Below, piece by piece: positions 4,439 to 26,238 of a stretch of 64,000 nucleotides of DNA. A program made the position numbers and the translations under genes. The notes under the pieces are model-generated. The model made no database searches and was not told the origin of the DNA. It saw only the letters and a program-made list of their open reading frames with translations. The number at the start of each line of letters is the position of its first letter. Position 1 is the stretch's first letter. Origin of the DNA: Deefgea piscis (GTDB lineage: Bacteria; Pseudomonadota; Gammaproteobacteria; Burkholderiales; Chitinibacteraceae); the NCBI RefSeq assembly GCF_019665785.1, contig NZ_CP081149.1, forward strand, positions 1,736,001 to 1,800,000, written 5' to 3'.

Positions 4439-6033
4439 GATTCTGTTGAAAAACCCACCTTTAAAAAGCCTTGATCAGTACTTAAAGCCTAACGAGGCTG
4501 AAAAATGACATTTTGGAGGCTTAATTTGGGCTTTTTTGCCCATTTACTGAGCTAATTTTGTTGTTTTTTCATGTTGCGGGCGCACCAAGCCCCTTGCTCG
4601 GCGTACCGAGCACGCTCAACTTGGCCAATCGACGCAGATTTTGTGCAATCGCGGTTAATGTGAATTCATCGGTTGCTCCGGTCAATCCACGAAGCCGCAG
4701 TCGATCAAGCTTTAAAATCGTTTTCATATGGGCAAACAACATTTCTACTTTTTTGCGTTCACAGCGTGATATTTCATATTCTGGTGTGGTCGCAATTTTA
4801 CGTGCAACATCACGCGCGTCTTCATGAATGCTGCGAGCGATTTTGCGAAACGTTGTGTTTGGACAGCACTTTTCTTTCATCGAGCAAGTGGCGCAATCGC
4901 TGGCACGTGAGCGATAAATAATGGTGTCCGCACTCGTCACATGTGAACGTGGTGTTTTGTAATCGCGCCACTGAATGCGCAATAGATTGCCCGCAGGGCA
5001 ACGATATTCATCTGCTGCTTCATTCCACTCAAAATCATCCCGTGACAATGTCCCATCTTTGCGAGCAGTTTTATCCATGACGGGGATGTGTGGTTCAATT
5101 TGTTTTTCTTTGACTAGCCAGCCTAGCATCGGTGCCGAGCCATACGCGGTATCGGCAATCAGCCGATCAGGCTTCAAATCAAAGCGTTCTTTGACACGAT
5201 CAACCATTGTTTTCGTTGAATCGACTTCTGCCGTCCGATGAGAGGGTGTCGCTTCAACATCAAGAATAATGCCGTGGGCGGTATCAATTAGATAATTAGT
5301 TGAATATGCAAAATAAGCGATGCCGCCTGTGGCGGCGGTCCAGCGAGATTGAGGATCACTCAATGAGATTTTGCGTTCAACATCGCTAGATTGGTTGTTA
5401 TCAAGGGCGTCGAGATATTCAGTCATTGCACGTGTGCGAATTTCTGGATTGTTCCAATCAAACGCCTCACCTGGAGCAACGCTATGTTGATGACTGGCAT
5501 TGGCTTCAACTAAGCTAGCATCGATGGCAAAACCTTCGCCTTTGATCAATCCTGCCGCCATACAACGACGCACAACCTCATCAAATACCCACCGAAAAAC
5601 ATCACTCTCACGAAATCGACCATGCCGATTTTTGGAAAAAGTTGAATGATTGGGAATGGCATCTTCAAGGCTAAGGCGGCAAAACCAGCGATAAGCCAAG
5701 TTGAGATGCACCTCTTCACAAAGTCGGCGTTCTGAACGGATGCCGTAGCAGTACCCCACAATCAGCATGCGAATCATCAGTTCTGGATCAATTGAGGGGC
5801 GACCAATTGGACTGTAATGCTTGGCGATATGAATGCGCAGTTCGCCTAGGTCGAGGCATTGGTCAATGCTACGCAATAAATGGTTAGCAGGGATATGCTC
5901 GTCAAGATTAAAGGAATAAAACAGCTGGTTTTGGTTGCCAGTATGTTGCCCCATCATCGCTAGCATCTCCGAGAAAAACACATGGTGCTATTTTAGCAAA
6001 TGACCTTCGCTCACGGGGTTTTTCAACAGAATC
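4439..6033 (-). mobile_element. Complete IS1182-family insertion sequence, 1595 bp
   Basis: Perfect 18-bp terminal inverted repeats are present: GATTCTGTTGAAAAACCC at 4439-4456 and its reverse complement at 6016-6033. GACC stands immediately outside both ends (4435-4438 and 6034-6037) and is a likely 4-bp target duplication. Inside is one intact transposase on the minus strand. The insertion is intergenic, just past the trhP terminator, and breaks no recognisable gene. Intact ends and an intact gene suggest recent insertion and possible activity. Confidence 0.88.
4569..5957 (-). CDS. IS1182-family DDE transposase
   Basis: A 462-residue transposase filling the insertion sequence. The N-terminal region is YSFNLDEHIPANHLLR followed by GRPSIDPELMIRMLIVGYCYG, typical of IS1182-like enzymes. 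Candidate catalytic acids are the Asp in GFAIDASLVEANAS, the Asp in RLIADTAYGS, and the Glu in KKVEMLFAHMKTILKLDRLR. A CxxC-type cysteine cluster (ASDCATCSMKEKCCPN) lies between the last two. The frame is open from a GTG at 5981, but ATG 5957 has GGAG upstream and gives the usual start MMGQHTGNQNQLF. There is no frameshift or premature stop. Confidence 0.9.
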   Translation of the reverse strand: MMGQHTGNQNQLFYSFNLDEHIPANHLLRSIDQCLDLGELRIHIAKHYSPIGRPSIDPELMIRMLIVGYCYGIRSERRLCEEVHLNLAYRWFCRLSLEDAIPNHSTFSKNRHGRFRESDVFRWVFDEVVRRCMAAGLIKGEGFAIDASLVEANASHQHSVAPGEAFDWNNPEIRTRAMTEYLDALDNNQSSDVERKISLSDPQSRWTAATGGIAYFAYSTNYLIDTAHGIILDVEATPSHRTAEVDSTKTMVDRVKERFDLKPDRLIADTAYGSAPMLGWLVKEKQIEPHIPVMDKTARKDGTLSRDDFEWNEAADEYRCPAGNLLRIQWRDYKTPRSHVTSADTIIYRSRASDCATCSMKEKCCPNTTFRKIARSIHEDARDVARKIATTPEYEISRCERKKVEMLFAHMKTILKLDRLRLRGLTGATDEFTLTAIAQNLRRLAKLSVLGTPSKGLGAPAT

Positions 6034-20033: not shown

Positions 20034-20066
20034 TCCTGCGTAGTGATGGCTTTGTTTTTCCCGATA

Positions 20067-20102
20067 AATACCGGCAAGCGTTGCGCTGCCGGTATTTTTT
20101 TT
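20067..20102 (+). terminator. Rho-independent terminator after ppsA
   Basis: AATACCGGCA (20067-20076) pairs with TGCCGGTATT (20087-20096), followed by a long T run. It lies 34 bp after the stop codon. Confidence 0.85.
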
Positions 20103-20200
20103 GCCGCGTGGCGGTGTGAATAATTTTGCTGAAATGAGTACGGATACTTTACTTACTTAAACTAAAATGTATTTATATATTTAATTCAGGTATACATGTA

Positions 20201-21358
20201 ATGAGCTTACGCCAACCAGCAAAACAGCAGAAAAAGAAAGTGCTCTGTGTTTTTGGTACTCGCCCTGAGGCCATTAAGATGGCGCCGCTGGTTTTGGCTT
20301 TGCAAGCCAATACTGAGATTGAATGCCAAGTGTGTGTGACGGCGCAGCATCGAGAAATGCTCGATCAAGTGATGAGTTTATTTGGTCTAGAAGCCGATTT
20401 TGATTTGAATTTAATGCAGCCTGGGCAAAATCTGACTGATCTGACTGCGCGGGCATTGCAAGGCGTGCGCGATGTATTAGTCGACTATCAGCCTGATTTA
20501 GTGTTGGTGCATGGCGATACTACGACCACATTGGCTGCGGGACTCGCTGCGTTTTATCAGCATATTCCCGTTGGGCATGTAGAAGCGGGCTTGAGAACGG
20601 GCAATTTATATGCGCCGTGGCCTGAGGAACTCAATCGCTCAGTGGTGGGTTTATTTGCCGCTTTGCATTTTGCACCGACAGCAACGGCTGCCAATAATTT
20701 ATTGCAGGCAGGCGTTGCTCCGGCCTCGGTGTTTATTACCGGTAATACGGTACTCGATGCTTTGCTGCAAGTGAGTCAGCAGATTGACCGTGATGCTGGT
20801 TTGACTGCATCGCTTGCCGCCGGTTTTCCTTTTTTAGATTCAAGCAAAAAACTGATTTTAGTCACCGGCCATCGGCGAGAAAATTTTGGTGATGGTTTTG
20901 TGCATATTTGTCAGGCGCTACACCAGTTAGCAGAGCGTGATGATGTGCAAATTGTGTATCCAGTGCATTTAAATCCACAGGTGCAAGCGCCGGTGAATGA
21001 AATTTTGCAATCGTGCTCGAACGTGCATTTGATTGATCCACAGACTTATTTGCCCTTTGTGTATTTATTAAAACGCTCGTTTTTGGTGCTCACCGATAGT
21101 GGCGGCATTCAAGAAGAAGCGCCCACTTTAGGTAAACCGGTGTTGGTGATGCGCGAAACCACCGAGCGCCCAGAGGCGGTGGATGCCGGTACGGCTAAGT
21201 TAGTTGGTACCGATGGCGAGCGGATTGTGCAGGCGGTTAGCCAGCTGCTCGATGATCCTAAGGTGTATCAAACGATGGCTCAGGCTAGCAATCCGTATGG
21301 TGATGGTAATGCGGCAGAGCGGATTGTTGATTTAATTTGCGCTTGGGAGGGAGCCTGA
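20201..21358 (+). CDS. wecB: UDP-N-acetylglucosamine 2-epimerase (non-hydrolysing)
   Basis: Interconverts UDP-GlcNAc and UDP-ManNAc. The 385-residue product has the family motifs [48 protein letters not shown] and [10 protein letters not shown]. Its stop codon overlaps the nfrB start (TGATG), so it is the first gene of the nfr cassette. In E. coli the NfrB glycan needs WecB-made UDP-ManNAc; here the enzyme gene sits in the operon itself. No enterobacterial common antigen or capsule genes are nearby, which supports a dedicated role. The leader before ATG 20201 is very AT-rich. Confidence 0.93.
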
Positions 21359-22821
21359 TGAGTTGGCTGGATGTTTTGGCGGCATATTGGTTTTTGATCG
21401 CTTTGCTGTTGCGGCTCGGTATTGTGGTGATCTTTTTGAGCTCGCTCGATGATTTTTTGATCGATTGCTACTACTGGGTATGGCGATTTAAGCATCGAAA
21501 ATCATGGCGTAGAAGTGAATACCTGCCTGAATTTGCCGATGATTTGTATCAAGATGAGCAGCAAGCCATTGCCATTATGATTCCGGCTTGGCATGAGGCT
21601 CCGGTGATTCAACGTATGGCCGATTATGCCGCGAGTACGTTTGATTACGACAATTATCATATTTTTGTTGGCACCTATCCCAACGATTTAGAGACGCAGG
21701 CTGAAGTCGACTTAGTGGCCAAAAAATACCCCAATGTGCATAAGGTAGTAACGCGTGATCCAGGGCCGACGACCAAGGCCGATTGCTTGAACAATATTGT
21801 CGCGTTTATTACTGAGATGGAGGCGCGCGAGCAGATCCACTTTACCTGTGTGGCGTATCACGATGCGGAAGACATCATTCATCCTTTGGAATTACGGGCG
21901 TTTAATCGCTTGGTACCGCAGTTTGATTTAGTGCAGCTGCCGGTGATGCCCTTGGCGCGACCGTGGAAAAATGTCGTGGGTAATCATTACGTCGATGAAT
22001 TTGCTGAGTGGCATGGCAAAGATATTTTGGTGCGGCAATTACTGACCGGCCAAGTGCCCAGTGCGGGCGTTGGAACTGCATTTAGTCGCAAAGCGTTGGG
22101 TTTACTCTCGGAGATCAACGGCGGAGTGGTGTTTGATACCGGTACATTAACCGAAGATTATGAAATCGGCTTTCGACTCCATGAGGTTGGCGCTCGAGAA
22201 ATGATGATGCACTACCATGTGCAGTTTAAAGGCTCACCTCGGGCTTGGTTTGGTCGTCGTGGTGTGCACGATATGATTTGTGTGCAGGAGTATTTTCCAA
22301 ATCATCTTTGGCAAGCTATTCGGCAAAAATCCAGATGGATCGTGGGTATTGTCTTCCAAGGCTATAAAAACCTGGGCTGGAGCGGTAAACCTCTTATGAA
22401 GTATATGTTGGCACGCGATCGAAAAAGTGTGATTGCTTTTCCTTCATTGCTGATGGGTTATGTGATTGTGCTGACGGTTTTTCAGGCGTGGCTGCACCAT
22501 GTGGCCAATCCCGAGTGGTGGACTTTTCCTGAACTGATTGAATCCAACAGTAGTTTGTGGATTTTGGTCGGGATTAATTTTTTCTTTATGCTGAATCGGG
22601 TGGCACAGCGGTTTATCTTTACCCGGCGGTATTTTGGATTTTGGCAAGGCATGCAATCGATTCCACGGATGGTGGTGGGCAATGTCGTCAATATCGCGGC
22701 TTTCTTTCGGGCGTTTTCGCAAGTTCGACATAGCAATAAAACGGGTCGGGCTGTGCAGTGGGATAAAACCAGCCACGATTTTCCTGACTTGCATGCAGGA
22801 GAGCATGATGGGAAAAAATAA
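21358..22821 (+). CDS. nfrB: NfrB-like inner-membrane glycosyltransferase, compact form
   Basis: A 487-residue family 2 glycosyltransferase resembling phage N4 adsorption protein B. An N-terminal membrane segment (YWFLIALLLRLGIVVIFL) precedes the catalytic part: IAIMIPAWHEAPVI, the acidic AYHDAEDII, TLTEDYEIGFRL, and QKSRW, a QxxRW motif of processive enzymes. Two or three membrane segments follow (FPSLLMGYVIVLTVF, SLWILVGINFFFMLNRV). The protein ends soon after. E. coli NfrB is about 745 residues and has an extra C-terminal MshEN domain that binds c-di-GMP; that part is absent here. ATG 21358 overlaps the wecB stop by one base and has GGGAGGGA upstream. Confidence 0.85.
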   Translation: MSWLDVLAAYWFLIALLLRLGIVVIFLSSLDDFLIDCYYWVWRFKHRKSWRRSEYLPEFADDLYQDEQQAIAIMIPAWHEAPVIQRMADYAASTFDYDNYHIFVGTYPNDLETQAEVDLVAKKYPNVHKVVTRDPGPTTKADCLNNIVAFITEMEAREQIHFTCVAYHDAEDIIHPLELRAFNRLVPQFDLVQLPVMPLARPWKNVVGNHYVDEFAEWHGKDILVRQLLTGQVPSAGVGTAFSRKALGLLSEINGGVVFDTGTLTEDYEIGFRLHEVGAREMMMHYHVQFKGSPRAWFGRRGVHDMICVQEYFPNHLWQAIRQKSRWIVGIVFQGYKNLGWSGKPLMKYMLARDRKSVIAFPSLLMGYVIVLTVFQAWLHHVANPEWWTFPELIESNSSLWILVGINFFFMLNRVAQRFIFTRRYFGFWQGMQSIPRMVVGNVVNIAAFFRAFSQVRHSNKTGRAVQWDKTSHDFPDLHAGEHDGKK

Positions 22822-25282
22822 TCGATTTTTTTATTCATCGGCTTGGCTTTTGCTGCTGGGTTTTAGTCCGATGGTCGAGGCCAATTGGTTTGGGGATGAG
22901 TGGCGTGAATTTAGAAGCTACCCTCGGCTGGAAAAAGCCTATCAGCGCTTGGAAAAAGGCGATTACGCTGGTGCGCGTCAGCTACTTGAGGAAGTATATA
23001 AGATCGATCCGAGTCGACGTAAGAGCACATTGTTTTTGGCGGATGTGTGTTCACGGCAAAAAGATACCCAATGCTTGGATCAGTTGTCCAAAGACTGGTT
23101 GCGCCGTGCGCCCAACGATGGCATGGGGTATTTGTTGCAGGCATGGTCCGCCTATTTAAAACACGATGATGAGGCGGTGATGAATGCCGCTGCTGAGGCG
23201 TTAAAGCGTTCAGAGCTATCGGCGGCGTCGCGTAAAAAAGCGGCTGAGGCATGGTTAAATGCCGCGCTACGGAAAGGGAATGTCAGTCGTATTCAACAGA
23301 CGTTGGCACAGATCGCGCAGTATAAAATCACCTTGCCACGTGCCTTACTGGTGCAGGCCGAAGCGGTATTACAGTCGGCCAAATCAAACCCTACTTTTTC
23401 TGCGCAGTTAGTGCCCTCGGCCATACCGGCAATGACTGCAACGATGAAACCAAAACAAACGCAGCAAACCGCGCAGCTCAACAAGCCTGAAGTGCAGACG
23501 CCGCCTGCAGCACCGGTAGTGTTTCCATATGCCGCGTTGCCTGCCGTACAGCGTGAGCAAAAAATTGCGGCTGATTTTTCAGCTTTGATTGCCAAGCAAC
23601 AATACAAAACACTGCAACTTCAACTGAGTCAGTTACGACAAGCTAATTTGTTTACTCCGGCCTTGGCTGAGGTAGTCAGTAATTTACTGCAAGAAAAAAA
23701 TTGTCCATTGCTATTAAAGGAAACCCCCGTTTCAGATTTGCCCAGCCAAACGACTGAGCGCGCTCAGATGGCGGCAGCTTACTGTAGTAAAAGCAATTAC
23801 GCGCAAGCGGCGGCTTATTTTGCTGCGGCCAATCAACTGAGTGAGCTAAAAGGTCATGCATCAATCTCCGCAATGCAAGGTGAAGGTGAAGCGTTGTTGG
23901 CCAGTGGTGATGTCGCACAAGGAATGCACCGTTTAGATCAACGCTTGCAGTTGGAAATGAACGAATCGCAGGCGCGTGAATTGGCAAAACTAGCGCTGCA
24001 GCATCTCGATTTGGCAGTGAGTGCAGATATTGCCGCGCATTATCCCGATTATTTTCCACCGGGTGAGTTGGCATTGGCGCACGCAAGACAATCCCGCCAG
24101 CATGCAGATTTTGCGGCAGCAGATGCCGCTTATCAAGATGCTTTAGCCGCCAAGCCCACGGCCTTGTTGTGGTACGAATACGCCGGTTTTTTGCAGCAAT
24201 TACAGCGACATGAACAACAAGGGGCGGCTTTGGCGCAGGCAGCTCAATTGGCGCCGAGCAATCCACAAATTTTGGCTGAATATGGTTTTTGGTTGAAAGG
24301 CCAAGGCAAAGCAGAGCTAGCCTTGGCCTTGTTTCGTGCCGCTTTGGCACACGATGCCAATCGTAAAGAGCTCAGCCCTGAAATTGCGCAGCTAGAGATG
24401 GCCTTGGGGCAAACTGAACAGGCGATTGCGGATTTACGTTTCAGTATTGATCATCAAACCGAGATTCAAACCCGCTGGGGCTTGGATGAGACGGCGATGC
24501 AAACGCAGCTGTTTGGCTGGCAACGCAATGTACAAATTTTGGAAGACCGCTGGAGCTGGTCTTTGGGCGGGCAGGTGCGTTTGAATCAAGGGCCTGATAA
24601 CCAGCTTATTAGTAGCCCGGTGCAATTTGCGCAATATGGTGGTTCATTTAATGCTGAAGTGGCGTATCGACTTGACCCCTTGCTGGATGTCGCACGACCC
24701 ACGACAGTGTTTGCGCGTAGTGATGCCAGTTTGCAAGATCAGTCTGTAAGCTTGTTAAATAATAATGCCAATTTAGGCATTGGGGTTCGGCAGCGCTTAC
24801 TTACCGACTATGTATTGATAGGCTCGGCCGAATGGATTTATCGGCAGGGTGCGCCTTATGAAAATGATCTGATGGTGCGATTGTCTGGCTCGCACTCGAT
24901 CAATACCGATTGGCAGCCAGTCAAATCGCAATGGACTTCGCTGACCGTGTATGGCGATGCGGCAGGGCTGGTCCGTGCTAATAGTTATTATTTAACCGCT
25001 TTGGCCGAAATCGGTGAGCATTATCGTATAAGTGATGCCGGTAAAACGACTTTAATGCCTTACATCAACAGCATGGCGGCGATGAATACTGATAATTCGC
25101 AGCATGCTACGGTGAGTCGATTTGATATTGGGGTTGGGCTGGCTGTGGTGAGTTGGTTTGGGGGCGATCCTTGGCGCGCCCCAGACCTAAAGCAAAGAAT
25201 CGCATTAGAGGTTCGGCAGGCTATTGGCGGCAATAGTGATGATCGGTTTGCTGTTTTATTTAATTGGAGAGTTTCACATTGA
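22808..25282 (+). CDS. nfrA: NfrA-like outer-membrane exopolysaccharide porin with TPR repeats
   Basis: An 824-residue secreted protein. A signal peptide (RFFYSSAWLLLLGFSPMVEA) is followed by a helical TPR region (RLEKGDYAGARQLLEEVYKI and later NPQILAEYGFWLKGQGKAEL), a Pro/Gln/Thr-rich spacer near residues 200-230, and a C-terminal beta-rich part ending LEVRQAIGGNSDDRFAVLFN, like the NfrA C-terminal barrel domain. In E. coli NfrA is the outer-membrane exporter of the N4 receptor glycan. Two adjacent ATGs exist; 22808 has AGGAG at a six-base spacing and is chosen over 22805. It overlaps nfrB by 14 bases. Confidence 0.85.
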   Translation: MGKNNRFFYSSAWLLLLGFSPMVEANWFGDEWREFRSYPRLEKAYQRLEKGDYAGARQLLEEVYKIDPSRRKSTLFLADVCSRQKDTQCLDQLSKDWLRRAPNDGMGYLLQAWSAYLKHDDEAVMNAAAEALKRSELSAASRKKAAEAWLNAALRKGNVSRIQQTLAQIAQYKITLPRALLVQAEAVLQSAKSNPTFSAQLVPSAIPAMTATMKPKQTQQTAQLNKPEVQTPPAAPVVFPYAALPAVQREQKIAADFSALIAKQQYKTLQLQLSQLRQANLFTPALAEVVSNLLQEKNCPLLLKETPVSDLPSQTTERAQMAAAYCSKSNYAQAAAYFAAANQLSELKGHASISAMQGEGEALLASGDVAQGMHRLDQRLQLEMNESQARELAKLALQHLDLAVSADIAAHYPDYFPPGELALAHARQSRQHADFAAADAAYQDALAAKPTALLWYEYAGFLQQLQRHEQQGAALAQAAQLAPSNPQILAEYGFWLKGQGKAELALALFRAALAHDANRKELSPEIAQLEMALGQTEQAIADLRFSIDHQTEIQTRWGLDETAMQTQLFGWQRNVQILEDRWSWSLGGQVRLNQGPDNQLISSPVQFAQYGGSFNAEVAYRLDPLLDVARPTTVFARSDASLQDQSVSLLNNNANLGIGVRQRLLTDYVLIGSAEWIYRQGAPYENDLMVRLSGSHSINTDWQPVKSQWTSLTVYGDAAGLVRANSYYLTALAEIGEHYRISDAGKTTLMPYINSMAAMNTDNSQHATVSRFDIGVGLAVVSWFGGDPWRAPDLKQRIALEVRQAIGGNSDDRFAVLFNWRVSH

Positions 25283-26238
25283 AATGGGTATCGGCGGTTG
25301 CGGCGTGGGGTTTGAGTTCAGCATTATGGGCAAATCCTTGCCAAGAAGCTGCGCTTAAAACGGTGATCTTGCAACCTTGGCAGAGTCAATCTGAGGTGAC
25401 GGTTGATAATGCCCGTCGAATTAATCGACAGTTGGATGCCTTGGGTTTTAATGTGGTATTGCTGCAATGGAGTCGCAATGGCCAAACTGAATTTTGGCCC
25501 AGTGATGGTACTGGCTGGTTGCAAAAACGACTACTCAGCCCAGCGCGGCGCAGTTACATCATGGGTTTATATTCAGACCCCGGTTTTTTTAATGCCTTAA
25601 ATTTACCTGATGATGAGTTAGATGCTTATTTGTCAGTTTTGCGCGACTTTAGTCTTGCTGAAGCTAAAAAAATTATTGCGCAATCCAAAGTGAAAATTGT
25701 TGGCTGGTATTTGCCTGAAGAAATAGATGATTTGAATTGGCGAACGCCTGCTAGGCAAGCGATGTTAGTGCGGCATTATCAAGCCATTTCGCGTGATTTA
25801 AAGGCGTTGTGGCCTGATTTACCGGTGTATGCGAGCTCTTTTTTTGGCGGGTTTAGTCCGCCCACAGAATACGCCGCCATGCTGCGCTCATTACAGCAGC
25901 AAACTGGTATTCAATGGATGGTGCAAGGCGGGCAAGGCGTATTGCGTAAGCCACAGCCGGCGACGGCTTCTTATCTCAGCGCGGTTAATGCCGCTTTGCC
26001 GCGTCAGCAATGGAGTGGCATTTTAGAGGTGTTTACCGAGAAAAACAGTCTTAAGGCGCAGCGTTTTTGTCCTGCCAATTTACCTGAAATTCAGCGAAGA
26101 AAAGCGGTTTGGTGTGCTGCTACAGGATCTTCGCCAACGGTGTATTTTTCGCTCAATCAACTGAGTGAATCATTGTTTGGTATCCCGAATACAGGGTGCA
26201 AAAGTGAACCATTGCATGGCCCTTACCATAGTGAATAA
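25279..26238 (+). CDS. DUF4434-like periplasmic protein, putative glycoside hydrolase
   Basis: A 319-residue protein with a signal peptide (KWVSAVAAWGLSSALWA then NPCQ). The mature part looks like a TIM-barrel hydrolase of the DUF4434 type: ARRINRQLDALGFNVVLLQW, then KIVGWYLPEEIDDLNW, whose acidic pair is a candidate catalytic site, and PVYASSFFGGFSPP. The start is TTG 25279, which overlaps the nfrA stop (TTGA) and has GGAGAG seven bases upstream. I recall a similar gene, ybcH, next to nfrA in E. coli. A role in trimming or releasing the Nfr glycan is inference. No clear terminator follows. Confidence 0.72.
   Translation: MKWVSAVAAWGLSSALWANPCQEAALKTVILQPWQSQSEVTVDNARRINRQLDALGFNVVLLQWSRNGQTEFWPSDGTGWLQKRLLSPARRSYIMGLYSDPGFFNALNLPDDELDAYLSVLRDFSLAEAKKIIAQSKVKIVGWYLPEEIDDLNWRTPARQAMLVRHYQAISRDLKALWPDLPVYASSFFGGFSPPTEYAAMLRSLQQQTGIQWMVQGGQGVLRKPQPATASYLSAVNAALPRQQWSGILEVFTEKNSLKAQRFCPANLPEIQRRKAVWCAATGSSPTVYFSLNQLSESLFGIPNTGCKSEPLHGPYHSE

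Follow-up and report, generated by a model that had tools for sequence, protein, structure and literature searches.

An overlapping wecB-nfrB-nfrA-ybcH gene set in Deefgea piscis encoding an MshEN-free NfrB and a putative glycosidase

The window analysed here is a 64-kb stretch of the complete 3.58-Mb chromosome of Deefgea piscis. At 20201-26238 it carries a set of four overlapping genes, wecB, nfrB, nfrA and ybcH (DUF4434), which probably form an operon for making and exporting a surface sugar chain resembling the attachment glycan of phage N4 on Escherichia coli. A first-pass annotation had described end-to-start overlaps and named the four products: the open reading frame (ORF) coordinates bear out the overlaps, and family models agree with the identity of every gene, at scores well above what chance would give. 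wecB and nfrB share TGATG (21356-21360). At the nfrB/nfrA junction, ATGATG (22805-22810) offers two start codons, and the overlap measures 14 bp from the second ATG and 17 bp from the first. nfrA and ybcH overlap by TTGA (25279-25282). Such short overlaps are common between operon genes. All features are listed in Table 1.

Table 1. Features of the wecB-nfrB-nfrA-ybcH locus (window positions)
Feature	Position	Strand	Remark
Intrinsic-terminator-like hairpin with T-run, after ppsA	20066-20097	+	RNA fold
Cassette leader/promoter region	20098-20200	+	alignment of 4 genomes and promoter scan
wecB	20201-21358	+	ATG start, 385 aa
nfrB	21358-22821	+	ATG start, 487 aa
nfrA	22808-25282	+	824 aa
ybcH (DUF4434 gene)	25279-26238	+	putative TTG start codon, 319 aa

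Products of the four genes

WecB exceeds the cut-off of the equivalog model TIGR00236 (521.9 bits, cut-off 210.15), and its best match among solved structures is 1f6d (E = 2.6e-156). By family assignment it is a non-hydrolysing UDP-N-acetylglucosamine (UDP-GlcNAc) 2-epimerase, the supplier of UDP-N-acetylmannosamine (UDP-ManNAc). NfrA is assigned as an exported tetratricopeptide repeat (TPR) protein with a C-terminal outer-membrane domain. In Pfam, it matches NfrA_C (PF13283) with 78.9 bits (cut-off 25) and TPR_19 with 29.6 bits. Thus, the C-terminal domain on which the first-pass annotation had made its reading depend is present.

NfrB contains two matches to glycosyltransferase family 2 (122.2 and 106.7 bits, cut-offs 27) and aligns with Escherichia coli NfrB at 46% identity up to residue ~478. 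Hence, it does not group with unrelated enzymes of this family, the second outcome that would have counted against the annotation. Residue D169 and the TED and QxxRW motifs are present, and the predicted model shows long hydrophobic helices. Six NCBIfam models match NfrB. Only NF011305, a glycosyl transferase model that names no function, is over its cut-off (427 versus 409), while the model for c-di-GMP (cyclic di-GMP)-activated NfrB, NF008411, stays under it (579 versus 1170). The predicted model has a mean predicted local distance difference test score (pLDDT) of 85.9. Its best Foldseek matches include bacterial cellulose synthase, plant cellulose synthase and hyaluronan synthase, with template modelling (TM) scores of 0.43-0.58 and E = 2.3e-13 for 5ej1. 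The nearest folds are BcsA and hyaluronan synthase, as expected of a processive synthase. The E. coli protein has an MshEN domain (52.9 bits) and DUF4388 matches in Pfam, whereas neither was found in window NfrB, which terminates just past the conserved WDKTxHDFP. The missing C-terminal MshEN region comprises about 265 residues in E. coli. When solved structures were searched by sequence, E. coli NfrB matched MshEN domains only and window NfrB matched nothing. Truncation or frameshift of nfrB was ruled out: nfrA starts at once, and all 13 NfrBs of the subclade described below end 11-16 residues after WDKT. We therefore classify NfrB, on sequence and model, as an MshEN-free processive family-2 glycosyltransferase of the inner membrane. 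The first-pass annotation was right about the glycosyltransferase and overlooked the missing MshEN.

YbcH matches PF14488 (DUF4434; 58.7 bits, cut-off 30) and, below the cut-off of 344, PRK09936 (154.2 bits). Its identity to E. coli YbcH is 32%. A search of solved structures by sequence gave only weak, unrelated matches for DUF4434 (best E = 0.0043; best E = 0.59 in a separate search). With matches weak for this protein and absent for NfrB, folds were compared instead. YbcH is predicted to form a (beta/alpha)8 TIM barrel (mean pLDDT 89.8). This predicted model resembles the solved glycosidase domains of PgaB (poly-GlcNAc; 7-9% identity) and PslG (Psl; 17% identity). Both are hydrolases that trim or release chains and occupy a comparable place in other exopolysaccharide systems. 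Glu148 is present in 84 of 84 aligned sequences and Glu250 in 83, in an alignment with only 8 fully identical columns. In the model, Glu148 lies within strand 139-150 and Glu250 is the last residue of strand 245-250. This places them at or near the ends of strands 4 and 7; fold matches were compared by aligned ranges. Glutamates at the ends of these strands are the pattern of many retaining glycosidases. In clan GH-A, an Asn usually, though not universally, precedes the acid/base Glu. In YbcH, this position is occupied by various residues (E, Q, A, L, M, D, F). YbcH is therefore described only as a protein that may work like a clan GH-A glycosidase and is not filed as a member. ybcH is thus predicted to encode an exported TIM-barrel glycosidase with Glu148 and Glu250 as candidate catalytic residues. 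The chain trimming that had been suggested as a possibility gains support from the predicted fold and the conserved glutamate pair. In the literature searched, no paper names DUF4434 and none joins YbcH with 'glycoside hydrolase'.

Chitinase-like proteins share the YbcH fold as well, and we take these matches to be non-catalytic. Within the same exopolysaccharide system, YbcH could be a non-catalytic periplasmic scaffold or chain binder that has kept a glycosidase-like barrel for carbohydrate binding. In line with this, YbcH has been proposed as a putative scaffold, and the phenotype of a ybcH deletion is partial (PMC8669469). The near invariance of the two glutamates and their place on the barrel strands speak against a mere binder, and we regard a scaffold role as doubtful.

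NfrB relatives and c-di-GMP control

Among the best 120 of 4,617 NfrB homologues, 54 are shorter than 560 aa, 18 have 600-703 aa and 48 at least 704 aa. The nearest named relatives among the matches listed belong to Deefgea (86% and 90% identity). For phylogeny, 100 loci were assembled from the best 80 of at least 590 confirmed matches in a genome-contig scan, 18 regions of the window's bacterial family, E. coli K-12 and the window. They represent the nearest hits to window NfrB, not a random draw. Three were dropped, L084 (broken nfrB ORF), L107 (same genome as L024) and L114 (near-copy of L064), leaving 97.

In the 97-row tree, built on the glycosyltransferase part (67 MshEN, 25 MshEN-free, 5 weak), the MshEN rows lie on one side (support 92), the MshEN-free rows need two changes, and the deepest split has a support of only 73. 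A 63-row tree left out 34 rows: near-duplicates and three long branches (L071, L056, L097). The MshEN-free rows among those removed are L071, L039 and L066. In this tree, support is 100/95 for the MshEN group and 100/97 for the MshEN-free group. After this removal, MshEN-free NfrBs appear as a deep branch of their own. Both trees are unrooted and do not tell gain from loss of MshEN. The window falls into a 13-row subclade composed of its own genus, two Chitinibacter-like genomes, Sapientia, Glaciimonas, two Variovorax and one metagenome-assembled genome (MAG). A published survey found MshEN in 1,705 of 1,841 NfrB homologues (PMC8669469). This means that it met MshEN-free homologues, which the available part of that text does not discuss. 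Of 43 genomes from the window's family, 19 encode NfrB; the protein is short in 8 of them, carries MshEN in 8 and is a weak case in 3.

Two groups of sequences stand apart. L071 (Halopseudomonas laoshanensis) encodes a 541-aa MshEN-free NfrB on a long branch, maybe an independent loss of MshEN, and its NfrA-like protein is very long (1376 aa). The NfrB-like proteins of L120, L121 and L122 (genomes G012, G002 and G011) are divergent, measure 714-742 aa and resemble the MshEN region only weakly. Neither nfrA nor ybcH was found near them, and they are possibly a different synthase.

Without MshEN, window NfrB cannot be taken to be under the c-di-GMP control described for E. coli. The genome does have c-di-GMP signalling, with 38 GGDEF matches. 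These matches would allow another form of control, in which the short NfrB is bound by a separate protein of the GGDEF or c-di-GMP-binding kind. All 38 lie outside the window, however, and Pfam revealed no c-di-GMP-binding or GGDEF domain in the four cassette proteins; the search did not extend to PilZ or free-standing MshEN proteins. We consider such a docked regulator unlikely.

wecB linkage, precursor supply and chromosomal sites

Of the sampled loci, 94 extend at least 1.3 kb upstream of nfrB. In 65 of them, wecB is the immediate upstream neighbour in the same orientation (MshEN-free 16/25, MshEN 49/66, weak 0/3). All 13 members of the window's subclade show this arrangement. Adjacent wecB is not commoner with MshEN-free than with MshEN NfrB, an argument against the epimerase replacing the switch. 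Among 94 loci covered for at least 1.5 kb downstream, 90 have nfrA, and ybcH was found in 83 of 91; misses of ybcH were counted only with at least 5 kb downstream, so that the latter figure leans high. A cassette unique to Neisseriales was ruled out, because the identical gene order occurs in several orders of Pseudomonadota. In two loci, L035 and L037 (Francisellaceae and a gammaproteobacterial MAG), the Nfr locus is rearranged: ybcH precedes nfrB, and wecB is encoded on the other strand.

The arrangement itself is already known. E. coli K-12 has the same order nfrB-nfrA-ybcH for its N4 glycan receptor (NGR), conserved glycosyltransferase motifs, WecB as precursor supplier and, likewise, a 14-nt nfrB/nfrA overlap (PMC8669469). 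It differs from the window in that wecB is not inside the operon, and its NfrB is 745 aa long, compared to 487 aa without the MshEN region. The NfrAs align only over the N-terminal 74 and the C-terminal ~196 residues (31% and 24% identity). The complete order wecB-nfrB-nfrA-ybcH is seen in operons of Pseudomonas, Silvimonas, Dyella and others (PMC8669469). Their NfrBs have MshEN, however, and their WecBs sit on other branches. Closest among the matches listed are the MshEN-free loci of Sapientia, Glaciimonas, Variovorax and Chitinibacter-like genomes. Their NfrBs are 66%-97% identical to that of the window and, where the contig is long enough, the gene order is the same. Outside the four genomes with the cassette at ppsA (see below), the chromosomal neighbours differ. 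Because E. coli has nfrBA-ybcH and the wecB linkage was published in 2021 (PMC8669469), the window does not contain a new kind of cassette. The one-unit gene set of the first-pass annotation holds, while its distinctiveness does not. Judged by sequence and model, the locus is a less studied variant, with no MshEN in NfrB and a glycosidase-like last gene.

According to Junkermeier and Hengge, every NfrB organism without wecB in another pathway has wecB adjoining nfrB (PMC8669469). The D. piscis cassette retains its dedicated wecB although the genome has another. This second gene (G000:C1:1093598-1094704), also over the cut-off, neighbours the UDP-ManNAc dehydrogenase gene wecC (NF008286, 701.7 bits, cut-off 459) and a gene for a WecG/TagA-type transferase (TIGR00696, 165.3 bits, cut-off 69). 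Therefore, UDP-ManNAc is probably also made outside the cassette, and calling the system self-contained was an overstatement. The surrounding region (L104, G000:C1:1086000-1102000) is a second polysaccharide cluster that also includes two long ORFs, presumably heparinase-like. After these ORFs come two small proteins whose tails look PEP-CTERM-like.

A quick WecB tree of 77 rows, calculated without a mixture model and with long branches flagged, groups the wecBs of the window's NfrB subclade with one outsider, L120 (support 86). The second wecB falls away from the cassette-type genes, and descent of the cassette copy from it is not supported by this tree. nfrB-adjacent wecBs stem from separate branches in different lineages. 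Such repeated linkage bears on the question of whether the product is a ManNAc polymer at all: the epimerase might be an accessory and NfrB might use another UDP-sugar. No wecB was seen on the DNA examined in five of the 25 MshEN-free loci that extend at least 1.3 kb upstream, as would be expected in that case. The presence of wecBs from separate branches directly upstream of nfrB argues against it, as does the finding that phage N4 in E. coli requires only wecB among the genes for enterobacterial common antigen (ECA) (PMC8669472). We judge a product other than a ManNAc polymer quite improbable.

Eight genomes of two genera keep all four genes side by side, at four chromosomal sites in all. 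In the window, G019, G021 and G022, ppsA and a transaminase gene enclose the cassette. In G018 and G020 it sits next to the RNase R gene (identified in G020 by a like protein start), and in G006 and G010 it occupies two further, separate places. The ppsA site is empty in three genomes of the Deefgea group, G018, G020 and G023, where ppsA and the transaminase gene are separated by 194-284 bases. In G023, no NfrB was found in the survey of the 43 family genomes. That the four genes stay together in each of the eight genomes supports one functional unit.

Proposed mechanism and flanks of the cassette

From these data we infer the substrate, polymer, trimming, regulation and surface exposure of a likely pathway: the four genes would constitute an Nfr-type, synthase-dependent exopolysaccharide operon with YbcH as trimming or releasing enzyme and NfrB ungated by c-di-GMP via MshEN. 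WecB would convert UDP-GlcNAc to UDP-ManNAc. NfrB in the inner membrane would polymerise UDP-ManNAc or a ManNAc-containing unit and thread the chain outward. NfrA, with TPRs in the periplasm and a barrel in the outer membrane, would bring it to the surface. This sequence of precursor supply, polymerisation and outer-membrane export, as drawn in the first-pass annotation, is likely; the phage receptor role that the annotation also named is a possibility. By analogy to PgaB and PslG, the exported TIM-barrel protein YbcH, a predicted glycosidase, may trim or release the chain on its way out. Membership in the MshEN-free branch would leave NfrB ungated by c-di-GMP through this domain, and output would more likely be set by operon transcription and precursor supply.

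A broader reading is possible rather than likely. There might be two deep kinds of Nfr machine, one c-di-GMP-switched as in E. coli and one a switch-free four-gene block found at varied sites of close relatives. In both, YbcH might be an unrecognised retaining glycosidase that trims a ManNAc glycan before or during export and thereby shapes a phage receptor. The two 2021 papers leave the NfrB polymer without identity (PMC8669469; PMC8669472). The polymer could be easier to obtain from a switch-free NfrB that comes with a dedicated precursor enzyme than from E. coli, where c-di-GMP gating and competition with ECA for UDP-ManNAc may limit output. If the operon does encode a glycosidase, this would provide a tool for cutting and identifying the polymer and would change the picture of the system and of its use as a phage receptor.

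The cassette is flanked by ppsR and ppsA on one side and by an acetylornithine/succinylornithine-type transaminase gene on the other. The region 20055-20110 folds with -19.6 kcal/mol (z = -2.71; 1 of 200 shuffles equally low), and each of the four aligned genomes that carry the cassette next to ppsA has a similar hairpin. This terminator-like hairpin after ppsA suggests that the cassette is transcribed separately as its own unit. No sigma-70-type match was listed in the leader by a promoter scan, whose 7 hits are no excess over the shuffle mean of 8.1. The four genomes share, in part, a short AT-rich stretch near 20152-20168. A search for direct and inverted repeats yielded none resembling element ends, and an Rfam scan and a tRNA search of the window gave no match. 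The GC content of the cassette genes (47.0-49.9%) is close to that of the window (47.8%), so composition gives no sign of a recent import. Elsewhere in the window, an ORF on the minus strand (4569-5981) with DUF772 and DDE transposase domains encodes a full-looking insertion-sequence transposase.
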